A DNA stretch of 22,159 nt from a virus. The translations under genes were made by a program, and so were the position numbers. Shown piece after piece: positions 6,320 to 8,355 of the stretch; the stretch's first letter is position 1, and every line of letters begins with the position of its first letter. The notes under the pieces are model-generated. The model had not been told where the DNA came from. It saw only the letters and a list, made by a program, of their open reading frames with translations, and searched no databases. Location: positions 1-22,159 of the IMG/VR virus record IMGVR_UViG_3300010883_000566; one strand, 5' to 3'.

Positions 6320-7061
6320 TGATCAAAAAACTGATGGCCCGTTAATTAATCTTAGTGCGCAGGAAGAAACTGCGCCACAAGAAGCCCCAATGGCAATTCA
6401 CGAACCAGAGCCTGGAGAAGAAGCAGCCAAAAGCGATGCGACACCTGAGGAGCGACCAGATTATATTCCAGCTAAATTTTGGGGAGAAAAGGGTGCAGAT
6501 CTTGAGAAACTTGGAAAAAGTTATGTTGAGCTTGAAAAGCAATTTAAGTCTGGAAAGCATAAAGCGCCAGACGAATACGATGTTAATCCTCTTGTCGACC
6601 AAGGCCTTGATGGCGAAGATCCGACTATTGTTGTTTTTAAAGATTGGGCAAAAGAAAACGGAATTAGCCAAGCTGCTTTCGAGGATCTTGCAGGCAAAGT
6701 TTTAAGTCTTTCTAAGCAAGAATCAGAGTCAATAGAAATTGATCAAAATGCTGAAATGGAAAAACTTGGAGAACGCGCTCAAGAAAAAATCCAAATGACT
6801 GAGCGTCTTTTAATGAAGGCTCCGCTTAATAACTCGGAGCGTGAGGCAATGGCCCAGGGCTTAAATAGCGCTGATGCAATCAACGCATTTATTAAGTATC
6901 ATCAATCTTTGACAAATGAAGGCATACCTGTAACTCCAGCAATTCATGCCCCATCAATTACAAAAGAAGATTTGGAAACTGCAATTGCAGATCCACGTTG
7001 GAAGACGGACACATCGTTCAGAACTCGCATTGAAAAGCAATGGATGTCAGCAAATAATTGA
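6312..7061 (+). CDS. Capsid scaffolding protein
   Basis: A 249-residue, acidic, glutamate/glutamine/lysine-rich protein directly before the capsid gene. This is the position and composition of podovirus scaffolding proteins (T7 gp9-like), which guide capsid subunits into a prohead and then leave. The N-terminal part is disordered-looking and acidic (residues 10-45). It is followed by a conserved-looking YIPAKFWGEKGADLEKLGKS and YVELEKQFKSGK, typical of this family, and by long helical segments up to ADPRWKTDTSFRTRIEKQWM at the C-terminus, where scaffolds usually contact the capsid. I chose ATG 6312, which overlaps the preceding stop as ATGACTGA and has GGAGAGA upstream, instead of an earlier TTG. 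Expression is likely lower than that of the capsid gene, which has its own apparent promoter. Confidence 0.88.
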   Translation: MTDDQKTDGPLINLSAQEETAPQEAPMAIHEPEPGEEAAKSDATPEERPDYIPAKFWGEKGADLEKLGKSYVELEKQFKSGKHKAPDEYDVNPLVDQGLDGEDPTIVVFKDWAKENGISQAAFEDLAGKVLSLSKQESESIEIDQNAEMEKLGERAQEKIQMTERLLMKAPLNNSEREAMAQGLNSADAINAFIKYHQSLTNEGIPVTPAIHAPSITKEDLETAIADPRWKTDTSFRTRIEKQWMSANN

Positions 7062-7066
7062 GGGTA

Positions 7067-7095
7067 TTGCAAAAATAATTATTTAGGTGTATTTT
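7067..7095 (+). promoter_or_regulatory. Putative sigma70-type promoter for the major capsid gene
   Basis: TTGCAA (7067-7072) and TATTTT (7090-7095) are separated by 17 bases, each matching four of six consensus positions, in an AT-rich strip just after the scaffold stop. Transcription would start near 7102, exactly where a GC-rich, strongly folding leader begins. This agreement between the promoter and the edge of the folded leader supports the call. Confidence 0.5.
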
Positions 7096-7101
7096 AGGTT
7101 T

Positions 7102-7232
7102 GACGGTTAACCGCGCTCGGCCCGTCTATTCGGTAACTTCCGATGGCTGGCGCGGCCATAACGCGCAAGCGACCGCCCTCTAATGGACAACGGAACGCGA
7201 ATTGTTTTGAAACCCATTAGGAGGATTTGTGC
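7102..7232 (+). promoter_or_regulatory. Structured 5' leader of the major capsid mRNA
   Basis: This 131-base non-coding stretch is the longest gap in the late operon and is markedly richer in G+C than its flanks. Consecutive hairpins can be drawn. GACGG (7102-7106) pairs with CCGTC (7122-7126), enclosing CCG/CGG. TCGG (7130-7133) pairs with CCGA (7140-7143). ATGGC (7143-7147) pairs with GCCAT (7155-7159), sharing base 7143 with the previous stem. A long final stem covers the ribosome binding site. A perfect palindrome, CGGTTAACCG, is at 7104-7113. No reading frame of note is present. I recognise no known riboswitch or RNA family. Confidence 0.55.
7177..7224 (+). promoter_or_regulatory. Hairpin sequestering the capsid Shine-Dalgarno
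   Basis: CCTCTAATGG (7177-7186) is complementary to CCATTAGGAGG (7214-7224) apart from one bulged G (7220), giving ten base pairs around a 27-base loop. The 3' arm contains the AGGAGG (7219-7224) that serves the capsid ATG at 7233. Folding would hide the ribosome binding site; opening would expose a very strong one. Control of capsid output by temperature, a bound protein or ribosome access is inferred. Confidence 0.6.
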
Positions 7233-8063
7233 ATGGCACAAAATGTAACTACAGCCTTCGTCACTCTGTTTGATGCAGAAGTGAAACAGGCTTATCAAGC
7301 GGCGTCAGTGCTTCGCGGCACGATGCGCACTCGCACCGGTGTTTCTGGTAACACCGTTAAATTCCCAAAAATTGGCAAAGGCGTTGCAACTGTTCGCGTT
7401 CCGCAAACTGACGTAACTCCGTTAAATGTAACTTATACTCAAGTCACCGCGACTATGAGCGATTACATTGCTGCTGAATATTCGGACATTTTCCAACAAT
7501 CACACATCAATTTTGATGAGCGCCGTGAGTTGGTTGACGTAGTTTCGAAATCAATTGCTCGTCGAATGGATCAGCTTTGCATTGACGCACTTAACGCTTC
7601 AAGCGGTACGGCTGTTGCAACTGGCATTGGTGGCGCAACGACTAACATGAATATTGAAAAAATTAGAGCTTCTTCAAAAGCACTAAACACAAAGAACGTG
7701 CCAGCTGGCGATCGTTATTTGCTTATTCATGCTTCGCAATTAGATGCAATGCTGGGTGAAACCGAATTGACTTCGCAAGACTTTGCCTCAGTAAAGGCTC
7801 TTGTTCGCGGTGAAATCAATACGTTCATGGGCTTCACTATTCTTACGGTCGGCGATCGTGACGAGGGTGGCCTTCCCAAACCAAGCACTCGCACTTGTTT
7901 TGCTTGGCACAAAGACGCAATGGGCTATGCTGAGTCGATGGCACAAAAATCTGAAGTGAACTACATTCCAGAGAAAACCTCTTTCTTGGTTTCCTCAATG
8001 TTCTCGGCGGGTTCGATTGCAATTGACGATGAAGGCATTGTCAAAATTTCCTGCACAGAATAG
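7233..8063 (+). CDS. Major capsid protein
   Basis: A 276-residue shell protein, probably of the HK97 fold as in related short-tailed phages. It lies directly after the scaffold gene and has the composition expected of a capsid subunit. Visible segments include FVTLFDAEVKQAYQAASVLR, VKFPKIGKGVATVRVP, a likely spine helix around FDERRELVDVVSKSIARRMD, and a C-terminal SMFSAGSIAIDDEGIVKI. The start is ATG 7233, nine bases after AGGAGG; a TTG six bases upstream is too close to that site. The gene has its own putative promoter and a folded leader, which fits the need for several hundred copies per virion. It is followed by a small capsid-associated gene and a hairpin at 8329. Confidence 0.88.
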   Translation: MAQNVTTAFVTLFDAEVKQAYQAASVLRGTMRTRTGVSGNTVKFPKIGKGVATVRVPQTDVTPLNVTYTQVTATMSDYIAAEYSDIFQQSHINFDERRELVDVVSKSIARRMDQLCIDALNASSGTAVATGIGGATTNMNIEKIRASSKALNTKNVPAGDRYLLIHASQLDAMLGETELTSQDFASVKALVRGEINTFMGFTILTVGDRDEGGLPKPSTRTCFAWHKDAMGYAESMAQKSEVNYIPEKTSFLVSSMFSAGSIAIDDEGIVKISCTE

Positions 8064-8315: not shown

Positions 8316-8328
8316 TGTAATATAAAAG

Positions 8329-8355
8329 AGAGGGCCAGGTTATCTTGGCCCCTCT
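8329..8355 (+). terminator. Terminator-like hairpin after the capsid genes
   Basis: AGAGGGCCA (8329-8337) pairs with TGGCCCCTCT (8346-8355), giving nine base pairs with one bulged C and an eight-base loop. The stem is strong, but what follows is ACTCATTT rather than a T run, so termination may be partial. A processing or mRNA-stabilising element at the end of the capsid transcript is equally possible. Confidence 0.5.

Follow-up and report, generated by a model that had tools for sequence, protein, structure and literature searches.

The major capsid gene of an IMG/VR virus contig of 22,159 bases, the whole of which is referred to here as the window, is preceded by a folded RNA, about 100 bases long, whose pairing, as judged by comparing relatives, is kept base pair by base pair in evolution. 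Our computational analyses show the fold, its link to the capsid gene and its spread over three phage groups: the leader lies 5' of the major capsid gene in the window phage, a marine virus, and in hundreds of relatives, including OM43 phages and, in a rearranged form, SAR11 phages. The covariation observed in three alignments (A1, A3 and A4) is that of an aptamer-like conserved fold, and the leader appears to represent an undescribed family of structured RNA, new both as a family and in the module that it carries. Because this pairing has been upheld in evolution, the leader probably controls the amount of capsid protein made.

The window encodes a terminase, a head-tail connector (portal), a T7-like scaffold protein, the major capsid protein (7233-8063; PF19821 Phage_capsid_2, PHROG 3437) and tail proteins; all the features located below are on the plus strand, as is the capsid gene. 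Among annotated phages, MEP301, which infects OM43, is the closest (capsid identity of 60.9%); it has no RNA polymerase of its own (PMC8024684). The scaffold-like gene stops at 7059-7061 and the capsid ATG is found at 7233, which leaves a gap of 171 nt (7062-7232) relative to 60 nt or less for the other late-gene gaps. The first-pass annotation was thus right to call this gap exceptional, and the G+C-rich folded leader that it described upstream of the capsid gene is real: the leader folds at -56.2 kcal/mol, compared to -45.05 +- 4.14 kcal/mol for shuffled controls (z = -2.69; 1/200 shuffles), and the stretch 7102-7262 yields a z of -2.42 relative to shuffles. A Shine-Dalgarno (SD) sequence, AGGAGG, can be read at 7219-7224.

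We took 80 capsid relatives (capsid identity of 76-88%), and the leader was conserved in nearly all of those having upstream sequence. The fold was derived by eye and then tested; RNAalifold, applied to 36 full leaders, missed its 3' half. The relatives define this fold at positions 7102-7198 of the window, where a P1/P2 element and a P5/P6 element flank hairpins P3 and P4 and a 3-bp pseudoknot. Element 1 (7102-7126) is composed of helix P1 (7102-7106/7122-7126), a bulge UUAA (7107-7110), helix P2 (7111-7113/7118-7120) and an unpaired C (7121). Then come hairpin P3 (7130-7133/7140-7143), in which 4/4 pairs covary, and hairpin P4 (7150-7154/7162-7166), in which 4/5 do; the pseudoknot joins UGG (7144-7146) to CCA (7156-7158) in the loop of P4. 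A nearly invariant linker AA (7167-7168), followed by G7169, leads into element 2 (7169-7198), where helix P5 pairs 7169-7171 and 7173-7175 with 7191-7193 and 7196-7198, the remainder being an unpaired C (7176), hairpin P6 (7177-7178/7185-7186) and a bulge ACAA (7187-7190). These helices differ from those of the pure energy fold: in the window, the conserved fold reaches -47.1 kcal/mol and the minimum free energy (MFE) fold -55.5 kcal/mol, a deficit of about 8 kcal/mol as modelled without the pseudoknot or tertiary contacts.

The sequence-only alignment A1 shows P1 enclosing P2, P3, P4 with the pseudoknot, and P5 enclosing P6. In this alignment 93.6% of the cells were paired, 14 of the 30 pairs had changed on both sides, and the covariation score was 0.325, against 0.156 when shuffled and at most 0.101 when slid. 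The merged set A3 (61 sequences), whose alignment was fitted to the model and is biased towards it, presented changes on both sides for 21 of 26 pairs and a score of 0.597 (0.194 shuffled; at most 0.078 slid). The pseudoknot itself changed from UGG/CCA to UAG/CUA in two window-type clades (L028 and L044). The compensatory changes that had been anticipated in relatives are strong, but they support a fold other than the one first proposed, and none was found for the hairpin covering the SD.

Each element contains the same asymmetric internal-loop module, 5'-GGHNNA-3' facing 5'-CCC-3', in which the GG is paired to a CC that has an unpaired C on its 5' side, and is itself followed by the four bases HNNA. 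Almost no variation is seen in the GG/CC pairs, the unpaired C or the last A. This module occurs at 5.8-10.5 copies per kb in capsid leaders versus 0.01-0.08 elsewhere, making it 70 to several hundred times denser in the leaders than in the rest of the same strand. Two known motifs, the GNRA receptor and the k-turn, were rejected on the basis of sequence; a k-turn needs a 3-nt bulge flanked by tandem G-A pairs, whereas the module has no G-A tandem.

We further analyzed the distribution of the leader with a DNA scan that used a pattern from its 3' half and disregarded genes. Of its 120 matches, 118 fell 36-46 nt upstream of the start of the capsid gene; of the remaining two, one is at a contig end just past the capsid gene start, and the other is a chance match in an apparently coding region. 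Model R1 identified a single copy in each of 89 sources, as well as diverged copies in MEP301-type phages (E of 1e-6 to 0.03), and model R2 matches MEP301 itself with 64.7 bits. Near-complete genomes carried one copy each in 9/9 window- and MEP301-type records. Scanning 84,980 bacterial and archaeal genomes with the pattern returned four matches, where about 5-6 were estimated by chance, and none of them had a good model score. Models R2 and R3 found no match in 200 genomes sampled from one bacterial phylum, a search conducted without positive control, which suggests that the RNA follows the capsid lineage and not the host, as far as seen. A blastn search of the leader against phages returned nothing. 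Finally, R3 had no match in the pelagiphage isolates HTVC010P, HTVC100P, HTVC028P, Greip, HTVC024P, Lederberg, HTVC035P, Skadi-3 and HTVC204P, indicating that not every member of the capsid lineage has the element.

The leaders of Baldr-type pelagiphages have P3, the pseudoknot, P4 and element 2 in common with the window type, and the two strands of their element 1 are found in the opposite order. In the sequence-only alignment of these SAR11 phage leaders (A4), 99.1% of the cells were paired and 14/22 pairs had changed on both sides, with a score of 0.461 relative to 0.178 for shuffled data. Their pseudoknot changed from CGA/UCG to CGU/ACG, analogous to the change in the window type, and its third pair is A-U in 13 leaders, U-A in three and U-G in four (20/20). 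Some leaders of this type have no P4 (L388 and L398), and the distance to the start codon varies from 27 to 76 nt. R2 alone reaches the SAR11 group weakly (E of 0.0007-0.02), so that the case for homology with the window type draws no less on common parts, their order and their position than on the score. Both the swapped strand order of element 1 and the absence of P4 in some leaders are changes that a locally recognised binding site would be expected to tolerate.

The promoter-like pair reported by the first-pass annotation is present: TTGCAA (7067-7072) and TATTTT (7090-7095) are separated by 17 nt and resemble a sigma-70 promoter with a predicted start at about 7102. This start coincides, as had been claimed, with the beginning of the fold, namely the first base of P1. 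The pair reaches only 8/12 of the consensus score, which many shuffles also reach, and it carries weight because of its fixed position rather than this score: the best promoter-like pair ends 4-8 nt 5' of P1 in 36 of 60 relatives. Sequences resembling intrinsic terminators were detected upstream of the leader in 40/64 MEP301-type loci and in 0/83 window-type loci. The conserved position of the promoter relative to P1, together with the upstream terminators of MEP301-type loci, indicates that the RNA most likely begins at the 5' end of the transcript. At the other end, a strong hairpin (8327-8355; z = -4.05) lies 3' of the capsid gene and a 79-aa open reading frame (ORF) and closes the unit; a clear U-run is absent from it in the window, and its role may be in weak termination or in processing. 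A strong hairpin occupies the same place in all 14 listed window-type phages and in most MEP301-type phages, and the sequences of these hairpins differ among relatives with the pairing kept.

The first-pass annotation had also buried the AGGAGG in the last of four hairpins, CCTCTAATGG/CCATTAGGAGG (7177-7186/7214-7224), which would hide the SD and open with temperature or with a protein. This hairpin does form in the MFE fold of the window, with a pairing of the SD core of 0.83, but it is not conserved: the median SD-core pairing is 0.06 over 61 relatives. Its ten pairs present no covariation (58.4% paired versus 57.3% shuffled; 26 distinct sequences), on the same alignment where P5/P6 hold with 95.6% paired, and cognate duplexes are barely better than mismatched ones (-7.8 versus -7.4 kcal/mol). 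Moreover, since both strands of P6 take part in it, this hairpin and the conserved P5/P6 are competing structures. As a feature of the family the SD-hiding hairpin is largely refuted; it is an alternative fold specific to the window, and we consider control through it extremely improbable. The thermometer idea, which depended on this burial of the SD, is not supported either, and the conserved SD pairing of an RNA thermometer or SD-sequestering leader was not found in the relatives. Closer to the gene, a small hairpin (UUUGUGC-AUG-GCACAAA; 7226-7242) that would place the start codon in the loop is possible in most window-type phages. The evidence for it is modest: among window-type relatives there are two apparent compensated variants, compensation being seen for the window itself and the L193 group, and MEP301-type phages do not have it. 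Leaders of the L019/L022 type start their capsid with MAIN and not MAQN, so that this hairpin is lost; instead, a hairpin GCAAAA...TTTTTGC within their final 25 nt has the SD as part of its loop.

We propose, with a probability of about 0.45, that the leader is a cis-acting element of the capsid mRNA that binds a protein, probably phage-encoded, at its two modules and matches capsid synthesis to assembly. The promoter would start a dedicated capsid transcript at P1 or no more than a few bases away from it, and the RNA would fold to hold the two copies of the module on either side of P3 and the pseudoknotted P4. Capsid translation would begin 36-46 nt 3' of this RNA, and the leader and the strong hairpin beyond the capsid gene and small ORF would bracket the capsid expression unit. 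The leader would act in cis, after transcription, through a protein bound at both modules, probably capsid or scaffold. Cis-acting control of capsid expression is, taken by itself, very probable; that the RNA acts on the mRNA is an inference. That the partner is a phage protein we hold only tentatively; the partner and the direction of the effect are guesses, among which control by capsid or scaffold protein is possible and our leading one. It is doubtful whether one can go as far as capsid or scaffold protein binding both modules and tying translation to procapsid assembly, or a released RNA working in the head assembly or packaging machine. The dedicated capsid control element first suggested thus keeps its structured, cis-acting character and its own promoter, which are well supported, and loses the burial of the SD by a fourth hairpin.

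Other functions can be envisioned for such a leader. As a 5'-terminal stabiliser, it would shield a long-lived capsid mRNA from nucleases, with the downstream hairpin guarding the 3' side; P1 begins a few bases from the predicted start, a strong hairpin closes the unit and no other protein is needed in as many copies as the capsid. Simple stems would be enough for this role, however, whereas invariant unpaired bases and two identical modules ask for specific recognition, and we regard it as unlikely. We find it quite unlikely that the leader is a riboswitch whose pseudoknotted fold binds a small molecule signalling the state of the infection or host to control capsid translation: the RNA is found only before capsid genes and not metabolic genes, one module is present twice with permuted strand order, there is no consistent expression platform on the SD and no match in Rfam. 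Such a function would nevertheless agree with the compact fold, its conserved unpaired bases and its pseudoknot, with the conserved fold lying above the MFE in energy, which would be anticipated for a structure that its ligand completes, and with the glutamine riboswitches known in marine phages (PMC9004378). A protein-binding site fits better than a metabolite pocket because the element is 5'-terminal, is cis to one gene and follows the capsid lineage across hosts, and also because of its two identical modules, swappable order and shrinkable middle. Finally, the leader could be cut off to yield a small RNA acting in trans, for instance in assembly or packaging like the pRNA of phi29. The fold is compact and autonomous, adjoins the head genes in one copy per genome and is separated from the SD by a short variable stretch, but the fixed 36-46 nt to the capsid start in window-type phages suggests cis action and the terminase genes are ordinary, making this very unlikely.

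Structured mRNA leaders are known as a kind, and phages possess autogenous operators such as the coat operator hairpin of MS2, the gp43 and gp32 operators of T4 and the scaffolding autoregulation of P22. The capsid leader resembles these in being a folded mRNA near the start site of a structural or replication gene, with a possible partner encoded alongside. However, these operators are single hairpins, pseudoknots or undefined sites, whereas the capsid leader spans about 100 nt with two internal-loop copies and a pseudoknot, and its binding is putative. The capsid unit of phage T7 comprises the promoter phi10, the gene 10 leader and the terminator T-phi. The window may have a comparable unit: its capsid gene has its own leader and a promoter-like pair at a conserved position, and is followed by a downstream hairpin, although one without a clear U-run. 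T7 differs in using its own RNA polymerase, where MEP301 has none (PMC8024684), and its leader is another RNA. Among structured RNAs of marine phage genomes, the glutamine (glnA) riboswitch of, e.g., Melnitz and Mosig sits in the ssrA (tmRNA) gene (PMC9004378), unlike the capsid leader, which precedes the capsid gene and belongs to another family with no Rfam match. Rfam 15 gave no match at gathering score in the window, nor any in the surroundings of the leader when E was allowed to reach 10; in 20 relatives its sole match was a borderline tRNA, located 5' of the leader in L351. A tRNA search found none. No report of a capsid-leader RNA was found in the open-access literature searched.

The leader has been kept over a large divergence of the capsid, MEP301-type and Baldr capsids being about 61% and 27% identical to that of the window, and also between hosts that are unrelated; the marine phages concerned are very common. 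It offers a testable handle on capsid dosage in small podophages without their own RNA polymerase, as reported for MEP301. Its module, present in two copies and in swapped orientation, provides a compact system in which RNA recognition can be studied.

Additional observations concern the capsid leaders of other phages. Dunaliella viridis virus SI2 (L083; HQ332136), for which an algal host is listed, carries a phage-type capsid gene related to those of these podophages. SI2-type phages (L294-L340) have another type of capsid leader, whose SD region (CCTTGAAGGAG) is able to base-pair with CCCTCAAGG further upstream; apparent compensated variants are CCTCTTGG/CCAATGAGG in L326 and TTCCAAAGG/CCTTATGGAG in L344. 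R2 found nothing convincing in these leaders, where compensation is also apparent in the pairing between the SD and a CCTCAAGG lying upstream, and we do not assign them to the same RNA family. In Lederberg (L457), a short annotated ORF (524-616) in the capsid leader region overlaps the capsid start; its annotation may be an artefact. More distant phages have possible single copies of the GGHNNA/CCC module upstream of their capsid genes: two groundwater phages from Manatee Spring (L460 and L461), in the last 220 nt before the gene, and L346, L352 and L367.
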